Part shown: piece by piece, positions 18,335-23,351 of the stretch
How positions within the stretch are numbered: position 1 is the stretch's first letter
Layout: each line of letters starts with the position of its first letter
Assembly: GCA_945860955.1 (NCBI GenBank)
Contig: CAMATH010000054.1
Coordinates: 1 to 50,338 of the forward strand
Direction of reading: 5' to 3'
DNA from: Planctomicrobium piriforme
GTDB lineage: Bacteria; Planctomycetota; Planctomycetia; Planctomycetales; Planctomycetaceae
Length of the DNA: 50,338 bases
The notes under the pieces: generated by a model
Told to the model about the DNA's origin: nothing
Databases searched by the model: none
Seen by the model: only the letters and a program-made list of their open reading frames with translations
Position numbers and translations under genes: made by a program

Positions 18335-18373
18335 AGAAAAATGGCGTCTCGCGAATGTCGCGAGACGCCATTT
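18335..18373 (-). terminator. Strong rho-independent terminator of the blaI-M56 operon
   Basis: A perfect 16-bp stem (18339-18354 with 18358-18373) has a three-base loop. Read on the minus strand it is followed by a run of five T. It lies 55 bases after the M56 stop, so the BlaI/M56 transcript ends here and is separate from acnA. Confidence 0.85.
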
Positions 18374-18427: not shown

Positions 18428-21400
18428 TCAGCGTTGCGTGGCCGTTGCCTCTTCAGGTTCCGCAAGAACCAACCGCGGGGTGATCACCAAATACGTTCGT
18501 TCCGCGGGCAGATTGGGGCCGGCATTTTTGAACAGGCGGTCGACATGCGGAAGTTTGTTCAAAATCGGAACCCCGACTTCGCCTTGGTCGGCACGTCCCT
18601 GGCGGAACGCCGTCAGGTCGACGACCAGAGACTCTCCGACCCGAAGGGTCTTCTCAAACTGGCGACTCGCGGCACCCGTCGCCGACTCTCTCCAGCTCAG
18701 TTGCAACTGAAGCTTGTGCAGCGTACCGCCCGTCAGGGGTTGTATCCGCAATCGCCCCTCGTCTTGGGCGAATTGCGTTCCCAGAGCGCTCGCCAACAGA
18801 TCAGCCGCCTGACCTCCCTGGAGAGTCAGCTTGACCGGTTCGGACTTCGGCGTTTTCGGGGAAAGACTCGCCAGCAGTCGGCGTGAATCGACAGCGGCCA
18901 CGGCGACGGCGACTTTCGCGTCGGCTGCCGTCAGTGGCCGCAGCGCAGGCGAACCACTCTGCTCGACGGCGGTGGCGAACGCCTCGGTCGACAGTTCAAA
19001 CCGATTCAGTTCGATGGCCACCTGCAAGTCCTGCAGAGTTCGCAACTGCTTCAACAAATCGGCGATCTGTTGATGAACGCCGGAGGATTGTCGAATGACC
19101 AGGGATAGCGAACTGACGTTTGGCCGAATCGATCTACCGGCGTCAGTGTCCCACGAATCGGGCGCGATCGTGGTGGAGATGAGTTCCGCCACGGAATCAA
19201 GGTCCGACTCTTTGAATTCAGGGGCCATTTTCTGCGTTTCGAGATCGTTCGTTTGCGGATCCCCCGCGACCACAACGGTCTGGGGGGAGATCACCAGATC
19301 CGCGACCGCATAGGTTCGCACCTGCATTTCGTCCCCCTTCGCCCCCGCGTTCAGAACGGGAACGCGAATCCTCTGCTCAGTGCCAATCGGGACGCGAATC
19401 GTCTCGCCCGGTTTCACCCGACCTTCAGCCGGCGTATGACTCTGGTTCGATGTCAATCCGCCGCTCAATTGGACGACGCCGCGCAATTCTGAAAACGGCA
19501 GATTGAGTTGAACCTGGTCGGCGTCAAATTTGTCCTTATCCTCGCCGTCAGGGGTGAGGCTGACCATTCGCACACCGCCGCTCAGCAGGAGTTCCATCGT
19601 TGGCGCTGGCTTCGCGGTCGGGGACTCCTGAATCCTCGAATCCGCGATGACGAACTGGGCTGCATCGCAAGTGGCGTGCAGTTTCTGGACGGCCAAGAAT
19701 TTCACGCTTCCCCGAGCTTCGATTTGAAACCGTTTCCGCCCCGGCTGATCGACGGCCTTCACTCGGGTCGGCACGGTGATCGAAATGTTGTCCGCCTGCA
19801 AAGCGTAGGCAGTTTCGTCATCTTCCGTCGACCCCGGGGGATCAAGTGTCAGAACCACTTCGCCCGACGCCACATACGATATGCCATTGTTGTCAGCTTC
19901 CATTCGAATCCGGCTCCCCACTTTGCCGGTACCCCGGAACGCGATTCTCCAGCCATCGACCGACACGGAGTGGACTTCGGGCGTCGCCCCCGGTTGCGAC
20001 GGGTTCGCCAGCGTCGCGGAATTTCCGTCCGCGGACTTCGACACCCCCCGGGCAGGCTCCGGTCGCGGAGGCGCTTCCTTTTGATCAACCTCCGCGGGAT
20101 TCACCTGTTTGACGGTCACCAGGAACAGCAAGTCCTCGGGTTCACCCTTCGCGGGAATGCGGGTGGCCCCCTCAAGCAGCAACGTACTTCCCGGTTTGAT
20201 TTCCACCGTCGACTGAATTCGCGTCTGGGCGACTTCAGGAACCTGGATCGTCAACGGCTCTTCCCCCTCCGCTCCCCGCAGCGTCGTCGTCGTGACGTCG
20301 GTGATTTCGCTGACGTTCGCCATCACCTCCAACCGCACGCGGTCGTCAGTCATCTGCAAGGGACGCAGCCGCAGCCAGACTCCCGATTCGATCACACGGA
20401 TTGTCGGTTTGCGAGTGCCGTCAGGTTTGACCGTCGCTCCCACAACGAACGGCCGCTGCGCGGACGAGTTGACATTCACCGACTGCGCGTTGAAGGTCGT
20501 CACTTTCGGAGCCATCAGGATATTGCCTCTGGCCGTAGCCTGAACCGCCTCTCGCAATTTCTTCAAATGTTCGGGCGTGAGAATGGTCACGGACGACGGA
20601 GTCCGGCGTTCCGTCCGCGTGACAGTCGCGTCGGCGTCGGCCTCTTTCGCCTGAGTCGAGGGTTCGCCGTCCCTCCAGATCGTCACACTCTCATTGGCAC
20701 CGACGTCCGGGATCGCTTTCGGAAGCGGCTGTCCGGGCAGTCCCAGCGTTTCGACAAACCCTTTGGGCGTGCTGATGAACAGAACTTCGACCACGTACTG
20801 TTGCAGCCCGAACCGTCGGCACGAATCCAGCAGTTCCGCCACCTCACGGTGACGGTCTGCGGACGCCCGCACGTACAACATCTCCCCCGCCAGCGTGACT
20901 GGTTGAGCTTTCGGCACGTGCGCGGTCGCGGCTCGAGCGTCGTTCGCGTCGGCCGGTTGAGCCGCCGGCGGTAAGGGTTTCGGTTCTCCGTCGCCGGTTG
21001 CGTCGGCTGTCCACAAGGAATTCACGAAATTGAAGAGAAGTTCGCGATTGGCCTTGGCCTCCGCCCCCTTGGGCCGATACGGCTGTTTCGGATTCAACTG
21101 CCGGTGCAGCTTCAGGGTGATGTCGCTCAAAGCGTAGACCCGCAGTGACTCGACCTCGAGCGATTGTTTCCGCGCGTCGTCCGCGACTGGCTGCGGAACG
21201 GGTACCGCCTGGCGGTCTGGCGACTCCTCTCGCGCAACCGGTTCCGCCCGAGTTACGACGGGTTGCGGTTCCTTCAGTCGATCTTCAACGACCGGTTCCG
21301 GCTCCTTCCAGGCGAGCGCCGCTCCGGGCAGCACCCCTCCCGCGAACACCACCACTGCGAGTCGGCACCACAGCGGCGCGCGACGATGACCTCCCTGTCC

Positions 21401-22444
21401 AATCTGCATGATTCGCTCCAAGCGTTGTGAAGTGATTTCCACGGGACGAACGCCCGGGAACGCGGGAACCGGCGTCAACGTCGACTTCAGTTCCAAGACA
21501 TCCAACAGGCTGCGGGCGTAACCAGCCGGTTCGCAGCCCAATTCGGCCAAAACTTCTTCATCGCAGCAGCGCTCGGCCTCGCGGCTGAGTCGTCGGCTGG
21601 CGAGTCGCACCAGCGGGTGGAACCACCACACGCCAACCGCCACCGTCTGCAACAATCCCATCCACAAATCGCCCCGCCGCACATGCACGAGTTCATGAGC
21701 CAAGAGCGGCGTCAACTCTTCCGCGGATTTCCGTTCGACGAGTGCCCGGGGCAGGATGATCGTGGGACGGAACAGCCCGATCACCGCCGGCCCGACCGCC
21801 TCCCGTGTCACCAGGACCGACACGGGCCGCCAGATTCCGAGTTGCCGACACAATCGCGTCACCAGGGGGACCACCACCGGATGCTCCCGATCGGCCCCCA
21901 CCCGCCAGCGCCGTCGACATCGAATCAACCGCACCGCGGTCCAAGAGATCCACCCTAGGGTTCCCAGAATCCAGGCACCCGCCAGTGATCCTCCGACGAT
22001 CGTTGACCACGGTCGTCTGGTGGGTATTTCCGATCGTTCACCAAATTCCGGGGCCACCCACGAGAGACTGTCTGGTTCGGATTCCCCCATGCCCGCTTGA
22101 GGTATGCTCACGCGAATTTCCGAACCTTCGGTCGATTCCACCTGTGTTCGAAACTCGGCCAATTGACGCAGTCGATTCAATGTCTGTTCATTGTCACGAG
22201 TTTGATGAACCTCGACCGAGACAGTCGTCGGCTGCAACCAGCAGAACACTCCGCCCGAACTGCTCCACAGGGGGGGCGTCACACATTTGAGCGCCACCAC
22301 AAACCAGACACCGTACGCCAGATGCGGTCGATTCCTGCCGACCATCCGCAAAAATCCGACCGCCGCGACGATCAGCAGCGTCACCTGCCACAGTTGCGTC
22401 CACACCAGTTGCCAGCCGTTGAGTCCGTGCGTTTGCATGCTCAT
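18428..22444 (-). CDS. M56 (BlaR1-like) metallopeptidase fused to secretin-like and LptA-like modules
   Basis: The 1338-residue protein starts with a BlaR1-type M56 unit (1-380): hydrophobic helices near 17-33, 43-58, 148-170, 260-276 and 361-378, and the zinc site HELVH at 250-254 with Glu-289 (REAERCCDEEVLAELG). In BlaR1 this unit cleaves the cognate repressor from inside. The remaining 960 residues should be periplasmic. About 545-780 is secretin-like (NILMAPKVTTFNAQSVNV, STVEIKPGSTLLLEGATRI). About 820-1000 is an LptA/OstA-like beta repeat (ASGEVVLTLD, LSGGVRMVSL, QLSGGL). About 1040-1330 is a planctomycete-type secretin half (STTIAPDSWDTDAG, LSLVIRQSSGVHQQIADLL; end GVPILNKLPHVDRLFKN, TYLVITPRLVL). 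BlaR1 itself carries a penicillin-binding sensor there, which is absent. ATGA overlap with the repressor indicates coupling. Sensor function is inference. Confidence 0.88.
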   Translation of the reverse strand: MSMQTHGLNGWQLVWTQLWQVTLLIVAAVGFLRMVGRNRPHLAYGVWFVVALKCVTPPLWSSSGGVFCWLQPTTVSVEVHQTRDNEQTLNRLRQLAEFRTQVESTEGSEIRVSIPQAGMGESEPDSLSWVAPEFGERSEIPTRRPWSTIVGGSLAGAWILGTLGWISWTAVRLIRCRRRWRVGADREHPVVVPLVTRLCRQLGIWRPVSVLVTREAVGPAVIGLFRPTIILPRALVERKSAEELTPLLAHELVHVRRGDLWMGLLQTVAVGVWWFHPLVRLASRRLSREAERCCDEEVLAELGCEPAGYARSLLDVLELKSTLTPVPAFPGVRPVEITSQRLERIMQIGQGGHRRAPLWCRLAVVVFAGGVLPGAALAWKEPEPVVEDRLKEPQPVVTRAEPVAREESPDRQAVPVPQPVADDARKQSLEVESLRVYALSDITLKLHRQLNPKQPYRPKGAEAKANRELLFNFVNSLWTADATGDGEPKPLPPAAQPADANDARAATAHVPKAQPVTLAGEMLYVRASADRHREVAELLDSCRRFGLQQYVVEVLFISTPKGFVETLGLPGQPLPKAIPDVGANESVTIWRDGEPSTQAKEADADATVTRTERRTPSSVTILTPEHLKKLREAVQATARGNILMAPKVTTFNAQSVNVNSSAQRPFVVGATVKPDGTRKPTIRVIESGVWLRLRPLQMTDDRVRLEVMANVSEITDVTTTTLRGAEGEEPLTIQVPEVAQTRIQSTVEIKPGSTLLLEGATRIPAKGEPEDLLFLVTVKQVNPAEVDQKEAPPRPEPARGVSKSADGNSATLANPSQPGATPEVHSVSVDGWRIAFRGTGKVGSRIRMEADNNGISYVASGEVVLTLDPPGSTEDDETAYALQADNISITVPTRVKAVDQPGRKRFQIEARGSVKFLAVQKLHATCDAAQFVIADSRIQESPTAKPAPTMELLLSGGVRMVSLTPDGEDKDKFDADQVQLNLPFSELRGVVQLSGGLTSNQSHTPAEGRVKPGETIRVPIGTEQRIRVPVLNAGAKGDEMQVRTYAVADLVISPQTVVVAGDPQTNDLETQKMAPEFKESDLDSVAELISTTIAPDSWDTDAGRSIRPNVSSLSLVIRQSSGVHQQIADLLKQLRTLQDLQVAIELNRFELSTEAFATAVEQSGSPALRPLTAADAKVAVAVAAVDSRRLLASLSPKTPKSEPVKLTLQGGQAADLLASALGTQFAQDEGRLRIQPLTGGTLHKLQLQLSWRESATGAASRQFEKTLRVGESLVVDLTAFRQGRADQGEVGVPILNKLPHVDRLFKNAGPNLPAERTYLVITPRLVLAEPEEATATQR

Positions 22445-22836
22445 TGTCCCTCCGGCTTGCGTTGTTTTTCGAGTCGGGTGATCAACCGCCGCAGTTCGGC
22501 GAGTTCATCGGTCGAGACATCCCCTTCCTCGATTAACTGCCGCACGAGGGGGAGGGTCTCGCCTCCAAACAGTCGATCGACGAAGTCGTGAATCGACTCG
22601 CGGATGACGCTTTGGGGCTGAACACACGGAGTGTAGACCCGCGTTCGGCCCTGTATCTCCCCCGTGACGTACCCCTTCGTTTCCAGCCGGCGTAAATACG
22701 TCTGCACCGTGGCGAAGTCGATCTCACGATCCGGGGGAAATGCCTCGTGGACCTGACGGACGCTGGCCCTTCCCAGCGACCACAGCACGCGGGCCACCTC
22801 CATTTCCCCCTTTGACAATCCCGGTCGGTCCGTCAT
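22441..22836 (-). CDS. BlaI/MecI/CopY-family transcriptional repressor
   Basis: The 131-residue protein has the winged-helix N-domain of the family (LSKGEMEVARVLWSLGRAS, ATVQTYLRRLETKGYVTGE at about 44-62) and a C-terminal helical dimerisation part ending in a charged tail. BlaI-type repressors bind TACA-N2-TGTA operators as dimers and are cleaved in the linker when the partner M56 peptidase is activated. Here the partner follows with an ATGA overlap, and matching operators lie in the promoter, so autoregulation is very likely. The start ATG has an AGGAGGG site. The usual reading as beta-lactam control is not supported, since no beta-lactamase or PBP gene is present. Confidence 0.93.
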   Translation of the reverse strand: MTDRPGLSKGEMEVARVLWSLGRASVRQVHEAFPPDREIDFATVQTYLRRLETKGYVTGEIQGRTRVYTPCVQPQSVIRESIHDFVDRLFGGETLPLVRQLIEEGDVSTDELAELRRLITRLEKQRKPEGQ

Positions 22837-22881
22837 TCGGTCCCTCCTGTTCGCGTGGTTCCGTCGTCAATCCGTCGCGAC

Positions 22882-22893
22882 GTACAACTGTAC
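22882..22893. promoter_or_regulatory. BlaI-type operator, proximal
   Basis: GTACAACTGTAC fits the BlaI/MecI core TACA-N2-TGTA, extended by one base each side. It lies just downstream of the -10 on the minus strand, about 50 bases before the repressor ATG, so a bound dimer would block initiation. Confidence 0.75.
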
Positions 22894-22897
22894 GCGA

Positions 22898-22926
22898 ACC
22901 TTACACGTACAGTTGTACTTGGTCAA
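22898..22926 (-). promoter_or_regulatory. Promoter of the blaI-M56 operon
   Basis: On the minus strand TTGACC (22921-22926) and TAAGGT (22898-22903) are separated by exactly 17 bases. The spacer contains one operator and the other follows the -10. The fit is good for a sigma-70-type promoter. Confidence 0.6.
22907..22918. promoter_or_regulatory. BlaI-type operator, distal
   Basis: GTACAGTTGTAC is the exact reverse complement of the proximal operator and sits within the -35/-10 spacer. Centre-to-centre distance is 25 bases. Confidence 0.75.
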
Positions 22927-23351
22927 GTCCAGCCCGGTACGGATTTGCGAAAATCGACTTATACTCCACTCGGCCAAAAACGAGACGGTTACTTGGATTG
23001 TGTTCCGTTTCAGATGTCGCTGGCCCCGGCCGGGTCAGAGAACCGTCCCACGGCGGGTGGAGCTTACCATCTGAATTCAGGCCGCGTAGAGCATAGATCT
23101 CGCCCTCCAGAAGAAGTCCGTTTCCAACTCAGTTCAATTAGATTTTATCCAGCGAGCGGAAATGGCGAGTGAGTCCATCCTGTTCATCCCTTTCATCCTC
23201 TTCATCCTGTCAAATTCTTTCCGTCCGTCTGCCCCATTCTCCAAGCCGCACAACCACACATCGCGGATCAGAAGAAGTTTTTGACAGGATGAAAGGGATG
23301 AAGAGGATGAACAGGATTCCTAAGGCGGCGGTCGCTCGTGCGGAGTAACGC
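22927..23351. other. Intergenic region with an inverted 9-mer repeat
   Basis: About 425 bases between the repressor promoter and purQ. Apart from the repeat pair annotated separately, no gene or RNA was recognised. Confidence 0.5.
23177..23317. repeat. Inverted pair of degenerate TTCATCCT-type 9-mer repeats
   Basis: The left arm (23177-23215) is made of tandem units like TTCATCCCT, TTCATCCTC and TTCATCCTG, ending in GTCAAA. The right arm (23278-23317) is the same composition inverted, starting TTTTTGACAGGATGAA. The two arms carry the middle units in swapped order, so they are not a simple stem but two related modules facing each other across about 62 bases. They could still fold, and may act as terminator of purQ or as a dispersed repeat. 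Confidence 0.6.

Follow-up and report, generated by a model that had tools for sequence, protein, structure and literature searches.

The operon described here lies on the minus strand of a 50,338-nucleotide stretch of DNA from Planctomicrobium piriforme (contig CAMATH010000054.1; hereafter the window), which belongs to an 8.4 Mb genome that is 98.9% complete. It joins two genes: P0002, a repressor of the BlaI/MecI family, and P0001, a BlaR1-type M56 peptidase continued by a large ectodomain that resembles secretins at both ends and, by structure prediction, LptA in the middle. The two reading frames are as an initial annotation, made from the DNA letters, had drawn them and share a 4-nucleotide overlap; along the minus strand, a promoter with operators is followed by P0002, P0001 and a terminator stem (Table 1). 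Overall, the initial annotation is partly supported: its anatomy was right in nearly every part and its structural half stands, as neither of the two outcomes it had named as refuting turned up; the signal of its functional half (outer-membrane or lipopolysaccharide-transport state, or secretin assembly) is a candidate.

Table 1. Features of the operon, in window coordinates.
Feature	Position	Strand	Basis
P0002, BlaI/MecI-family repressor gene, 131 amino acids	22441..22836	-	Pfam PF03965 (Penicillinase_R), E 9.6e-27
P0001, 1338 amino acids: M56 peptidase and secretin-like / LptA-like / secretin-like ectodomain (predicted)	18428..22444	-	Pfam, structure models
M56 (BlaR1-type) peptidase domain, residues 23-345	21410..22378	-	Pfam, E 8.3e-35
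HELVH zinc motif, residues 250-254	21683..21697	-	sequence motif
Last transmembrane helix, residues 360-378	21311..21367	-	hydropathy
Secretin-like module A, residues about 520-790	20075..20887	-	Pfam, model, VIA, alignment
Predicted LptA/LptC-like beta domain, residues about 830-984	19493..19957	-	separate structure model, VIA
Secretin-like module B, residues about 1042-1332	18449..19321	-	Pfam, sequence comparison
Operator 1, GTACAGTTGTAC on the + strand, within the promoter spacer	22907..22918	.	
Operator 2, GTACAACTGTAC on the + strand, directly past the -10 box	22882..22893	.	
Promoter as read: -35 TTGACC (22926-22921), 17-bp spacer, -10 TAAGGT (22903-22898)	22898..22926	-	
Intrinsic terminator: perfect 15-bp stem (18340-18372) followed by a run of T	18337..18372	-	

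Architecture of the fused protein

In the protease half, HELVH stands at residue 250, where it had been annotated, and the second ligand motif, E291-x-x-x-D295, follows at a spacing (41) identical to that of BlaR1. H250, H254, D259, E291, D295 and Y309 keep, to within one residue at most, the spacing of their BlaR1 counterparts H201, H205, D210, E242, D246 and Y261 (taken from PMC9834060), and judged by these motifs the active site looks intact. Neither residues 1-384 (under E 0.01) nor P0001 alone (under E 0.4) found a match in a sequence search of the PDB. Hydropathy segments over the threshold number two in P0001, three in its same-genus copy and four to seven in the other 18 of 20 rows; BlaR1/MecR1 receptors have four helices with both termini outside, and by analogy with the sidedness of BlaR1, the chain downstream of residue 378 is presumed to be periplasmic. 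The solved structure nearest to P0002 is MecI (1okr, E 1.1e-9). According to PMC9834060, BlaR1 cuts BlaI at the N101-F102 bond, and Q100-L101 of P0002 aligns to this cleavage site of BlaI/MecI. Of 25 repressors that go with fused frames, P0002 among them, 24 have a leucine directly after the aligned cut and one has a gap; the position is equally constant in unfused relatives, with leucine in 24 of 25 and phenylalanine in one.

Beyond the membrane, the initial annotation had seen two secretin-like halves around a beta-repeat domain. The Pfam Secretin model (PF00263) matches P0001 with 65.8 bits over two stretches, against a cut-off of 27.5: residues 633-761 (E 4.8e-18), and residues 1254-1326 (E 4.4e-5), the latter alone below the Pfam cut-off. 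Module A holds four long strands of 17-20 residues each within 656-749, predicted with a local distance difference test score (pLDDT) of about 90, and in the alignment it has no VPxLGxIPxLGxLF segment, which is typical of real secretins. Module B, laid out as an N-domain and then a short secretin C-terminal part containing GVPILNKLPHVDRLFKN, has that segment but covers only positions 96-168 of the 169 of the Secretin model. No single complete secretin C-domain is present; its parts are divided over modules A and B.

The structure of the ectodomain was predicted together with 28 relatives. The resulting model has a predicted template modelling score (pTM) of 0.42, with a pLDDT under 50 in 351 of 919 residues and in the middle insert, which it does not resolve. 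The best 39 rows of a Foldseek search with this model are all secretin or secretion-system entries, 32 of them at E <= 0.001. VIA gives Z-scores of 7.7-9.8 to 28 solved secretin or secretion-system rows; it re-aligns Foldseek matches only, which leaves room for folds outside that list. Along the same lines, a profile of 29 ectodomains matches 21 solved secretin sequences of secretion and pilus systems in the PDB (best E 1.2e-17). These predictions support the presence of a secretin fold in P0001. For the first part of module B, the VIA score to the N-domain of XcpQ (Z 6.8) is tied with unrelated rows (6.6, 6.2), and the secretin kinship of this N-domain rests on sequence, with a match of 6.8e-16 to an own-genome secretin-like protein, L081.

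That protein is one of three large secretin-like proteins of the same genome (L080, L081 and L082; 1166-1464 amino acids), which are closer to modules A and B than any other of the secretin genes fetched from this genome. They share module B's kind of C-terminal motif, GVPILNKIPYISRLFKN, and differ from P0001 in holding one module each and in having no M56 match.

The middle insert, refolded alone with ten inserts from relatives, gave a modest model that aligns to LptA (2r19) with a VIA Z-score of 12.5 and a root-mean-square deviation of 2.4 over 108 residues. By title, 17 of the first 18 VIA rows are Lpt proteins, and the remaining one, row 13 (4q35), is presumably LptD-LptE; from row 20 onward other proteins follow at Z 5.2 or less. 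The beta-repeat domain, first placed at about 820-1000, is best placed at about 830-984. Structure prediction, proposed at the outset as a check, thus returned a secretin fold and, at modest confidence, an LptA-type fold.

Recurrence of the fusion

Related loci were drawn from a scan of GTDB genomes (80 loci) and a search of 59 related genomes. Module A or B is present in 34 of 105 M56 frames (100 loci): both modules are complete in 16 frames, only A is in 10 and only B in 4, and 4 frames have parts, with L121 counted on a 35-residue match only. BlaI stands in front in 32 of the 34, namely in 27 by a distance rule, in four overlapping cases for which the earlier M56 frame start was taken, and in L130, the rear part of a split gene whose front frame BlaI precedes. 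The remaining two are L160, with a weak overlapping BlaI-like frame, and L135, which starts at a contig end. Peptidase and secretin parts therefore recur in one protein behind BlaI, the point that a search for homologues had been proposed to check. All 33 fused frames having HExxH (L130 is without it) keep the further D, E and D at BlaR1 spacing, and 30 of them the Y.

A tree built from the M56 domain alone contains a branch that separates 30 fused rows from all other rows (support 95/80; 96% of 200 bootstrap trees). This tree left out ten long rows, L061, L134, L160 and L121 of the 34 among them, and scored L130 as fused. A first quick tree needed five changes for the fused label and placed L061, L134 and L160 outside on long branches, where they may be separate fusions; it scored L130 as unfused although that gene is merely split. 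L160 is an M56-secretin fusion in a Verrucomicrobiaceae record. Other fused records include Gimesia, Rhodopirellula, Planctomyces and Roseimaritima (R. sediminicola JC651, L129) and, off the main clade, Stieleria.

Pfam families over 29 ectodomains comprise Secretin in 23 (E <= 0.01), Secretin_N in four, POTRA in three and STN in three. POTRA inserts, which take the same place as the insert of P0001 in some relatives, are strong in L130 (3.6e-19) and L094 (1.4e-20) and weak in L126 (8e-4), as L053; residues 477-633 of L094 match a BamA model at 1.2e-24. These inserts fit the initial annotation's proposal that the outer domain is made of outer-membrane/secretin-type parts. The POTRA of L094 and L130 lie before the secretin N parts, and the inserts of both also joined the LptA-like alignment. 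Sub-threshold LptD_N matches were present in two of ten inserts scanned (L090, 0.0038; L129, 0.004).

The sister clade, 24 unfused proteins, carries TPR, carboxypeptidase-like, WD40, HlyD, LTXXQ and other domains, and no Secretin, POTRA or Lpt family is among the families listed for it (25 of 41); as far as these families go, the outer-membrane theme thus marks the fused clade. Counting that of the window, the genome holds 14 M56 matches, of which 13 exceed the Pfam cut-off. BlaI stands in front of 10 of the twelve other M56 frames examined there (loci L065-L077) by the distance rule, and the ectodomains of these paralogues include HEAT with LRR, WD40, carboxypeptidase-like, sulfatase-modifying with WD40 and LRR, and AhpC-TSA domains. 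BlaR1-like receptors have radiated in this genome. A linker motif resembling GVGVNSDAGVTGxIxLDE was observed in 11 fused proteins (L088, L091, L093, L094, L096, L100, L102, L108, L130, L135 and L054), mostly right after module A; no other M56 frame of the set, the window protein included, has it by the same pattern.

Operators and their targets

The operators of the bla and mec systems are of the TACAnnTGTA type. Both operators announced for the promoter of P0002 are perfect copies of GTACANNTGTAC, 25 bp apart; since operator 1 fills the spacer and operator 2 follows the -10 box, they lie in and just after the promoter. The promoter itself is readable, with the 17-bp spacing claimed for it, but its -10 box is weak, sharing three of six bases with TATAAT, and a consensus scan called neither promoter nor terminator at these positions. 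The claim of an own terminator stands on the perfect stem and T run but likewise found no echo in that scan.

Within the window, the operator pattern with up to one mismatch occurs three times, versus 0.19 expected by chance. Across the genome, the exact pattern has two copies, both in this promoter, and is not enriched (2 versus 3 for a reversed-pattern control); the notable feature is that both genome copies stand 25 bp apart in one promoter. With up to one mismatch there are 42 sites (2 exact, 40 single), versus 103 for the reversed control. The search for a partner at a distance of 20-36 bp covered 39 of the 40 single-mismatch sites (all except 24021, inside the window), and no second paired site appeared: the best partner, matching 8 of 10 positions, lies at L174 within a 521-codon open frame, and the others match 7 or less. 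A genome-wide operator scan, which the initial annotation had proposed for mapping a regulon, thus yielded exact operators only before the pair itself and no regulon, and by its operators the pair appears to control chiefly itself.

Ten other genomes, chosen for loci with such sites, hold 25 exact sites versus 28 for the control, 13 of the 25 being already known blaI promoters. Six of the 12 others were inspected: L231 is a further copy of the BlaI-M56 unit, four are single sites without BlaI, and one (L225, 1477-1512, in genome G062) forms a pair of an exact site and an 8-of-10 site, 24 bp apart, before a 131-amino-acid open reading frame. The latter is a possible outside target in this unfused relative; by eye its product resembles a receiver domain, and there is no BlaI nearby.

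Site pairs before blaI are common in the fused clade, where 20 of 24 promoters (a count that takes in both the window and its same-genus copy) carry them at 24-33 bp, versus 11 of 24 promoters at 21-24 bp in the unfused sister clade, 1 of 36 in distant M56 promoters and 0.0000-0.0006 in shuffles. Groups were set by rule, fused meaning a module hidden Markov model match at E < 1e-3 and sister an M56 match at E < 1e-38. Counted apart were two fused frames of other branches and four cut or split frames of the fused clade, each of these groups including one with a pair. Among 54 loci, 17 hold 21 exact sites, all 333-605 bp upstream of the M56 start, the expected place of the blaI promoter. No conserved neighbour genes were found among the relatives, only common-looking planctomycete families at scattered distances.

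Proposed mechanism and rival readings

We regard the chances as evenly balanced that the pair is a self-regulated, BlaR1-BlaI-like receptor with an outer part that mimics, and reports on, the machines of outer-membrane assembly. In the BlaR1 model, as given in PMC9834060 and PMC7593790, a change on the outer side switches on the inner protease, cleavage of the repressor follows and the operon is derepressed. By analogy, P0002 would repress its own operon via the two promoter operators, and P0001 would be an inner-membrane protein, its zinc site facing the cytosol and about 960 residues lying in the periplasm, where they would offer a beta-domain of secretin type, a groove like that of LptA, and a secretin-type N-domain together with a C-terminal piece of a secretin. 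On the simplest reading, modules bind what their originals bind: the N- and beta-domains would bind unassembled secretin subunits and the groove lipid or lipopolysaccharide-like molecules, so that the signal would be unassembled subunits or lipid cargo. Binding would activate the protease, P0002 would be cut near Q100-L101, and the operon would open. Because no other target was found in the genome, the output would be the receptor itself, perhaps also acting on the bound parts, and such self-only control suggests that the receptor doubles as an effector. The fusion, the two folds, the active-site motifs, the operators and their conservation are read from sequence and structure prediction, whereas topology, repressor cleavage, ligand and output are what we infer.

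A broader proposal, which we advance only tentatively, is that a planctomycete receptor class senses by imitation: copies of parts of secretins, of the Lpt bridge or of BamA would bind unassembled parts or cargo and lead to the cutting of the receptor's own repressor, with the receptor as its own main output. It would then be sensor and effector in one, and a backlog of assembly would raise the supply of a decoy or chaperone.

Several results weigh against a receptor of this kind. The LptA-type fold comes from a single modest model (pLDDT 62, pTM 0.61), refolded with inserts that were picked by eye at 13-20% identity. Foldseek with that model returned nothing at E <= 0.001 (best LptC, 0.059), the window insert has no Pfam match, with none to LptD_N up to E 2, and by sequence the insert is tied to none of those used (best E 0.067); similarly, hhalign against single inserts of relatives gave nothing over 20% probability. 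Because Foldseek is weak, Pfam silent and the insert sequences untied, we rate the LptA-type fold of residues about 830-984 as a good but single-model prediction. An LptD_N (LptA/LptD) search of the genome found no match at E <= 0.1, so an Lpt partner here is hypothetical, and the LptD_N model matched in only 15 of the 59 related genomes. Compared as a whole with secretins, the ectodomain model reaches low template modelling scores, at most 0.15 over its length, with large deviations, since it does not fix how its domains are arranged. The strong POTRA inserts of L094 and L130 are close relatives of each other. On the regulatory side, no regulon through which the receptor would respond was found in the genome; four fused-clade promoters (L094, L096, L105, L108) have no site pair, and the site pair away from BlaI in G062 means that strict self-regulation may not be general. 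Finally, sister and paralogue ectodomains are so varied that the identity of a recruited domain does not necessarily reveal the signal.

This last point is also the strength of a competing view, unlikely in our estimate but deserving the most attention among the rivals, in which P0001 is a BlaR1-like receptor with generic binding modules and the signal is something else, e.g., a peptide, glycan or antibiotic. The very different ectodomains of M56 receptors in the genome and the sister clade speak for easy domain exchange; yet the parts recognised in the fused clade are those of outer-membrane machines (Secretin in 23 of 29 ectodomains, POTRA in 3 of 29, and the LptA-type fold), and secretin modules persist across a divergent clade. 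A working trans-envelope machine, which would reach from the inner membrane across the periplasm, form or cap a secretin-like ring and carry lipid on its LptA-like part, with BlaI and M56 serving only its own expression control, strikes us as rather improbable. Since the operators found control the pair alone, the protein would be its own output; module A retains the long secretin strands, and the missing conserved neighbour genes also suit it. It accords less well with a secretin divided into two incomplete modules with varying inserts, or with the relatives that keep only one module in full (10 A and 4 B, beside 16 with both and 4 with parts).

An ordinary beta-lactam receptor would account for M56, BlaI and operators, but its domain content contradicts this reading, which we consider very improbable: no penicillin-binding (class D-like) domain appears among Pfam matches up to E 1, and the blaR1_generic model scores 64.1 bits versus the 400 needed. 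That the fusion is an artefact of assembly or reading frame is hardly credible. Frame changes or contig ends split the relatives L099, L130 and L085, and the same-genus copy as a whole is distributed over separate contigs; nevertheless, one of these contigs carries M56 with most of module A (residues 1-719, 91%), and the architecture recurs in over 30 frames of other records.

Compared with known systems, the pair shares with BlaR1/MecR1-BlaI/MecI of staphylococci and bacilli the adjacent repressor and M56 genes, the identical HExxH/ExxxD spacing, the operators at its own promoter (known here as sequence sites) and a hydrophobic residue after the aligned BlaI cut (for BlaR1, PMC9834060 and PMC7593790). 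It differs in having secretin and LptA-like parts in place of a penicillin-binding sensor, and in that no beta-lactamase or penicillin-binding protein target is found here, only its own operator pair in the genome. The secretins GspD, PilQ and InvG (PF00263) have the same beta-domain fold and sequence profile, whereas P0001 sets two incomplete modules, with another domain between them, behind a membrane protease, and is modelled as a monomer. Similarly, the predicted fold of residues about 830-984 is that of LptA, LptC and the N-terminal beta domain of LptD, but here the domain has no Pfam match and sits in a receptor. A functional parallel is the Psp response, in which, according to PMC5596341, the inner-membrane proteins PspBC report on secretins and form a complex with mislocalised secretin multimers. 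The likeness drawn here, inner-membrane reporting on secretins, is one of function. To our knowledge, Psp uses no BlaI-type repressor.

Receptors of the BlaR1 type are already known; for the class with a secretin/LptA-like ectodomain, no description of an M56-secretin fusion was found among the open-access papers listed, mostly at the level of title and abstract. We know of few established signals for BlaR1-like M56 receptors beyond beta-lactam; in P0001, the components of the sensing end are recognisable, and they point towards outer-membrane assembly. If the proposed mechanism is right, a protease bearing copies of outer-membrane machines would give cells a further means of monitoring them, alongside Psp and similar systems, and a new way to oversee how their envelope is built.

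Elsewhere in the window, the profile scan found an aconitase gene and a GATase_5 (PurL-like) gene as neighbours. Between the repressor promoter and the next gene lies an inverted repeat (23173-23317) with 43-nucleotide arms, 86% complementary and 55 nucleotides apart, which looks like a repeat or mobile element.

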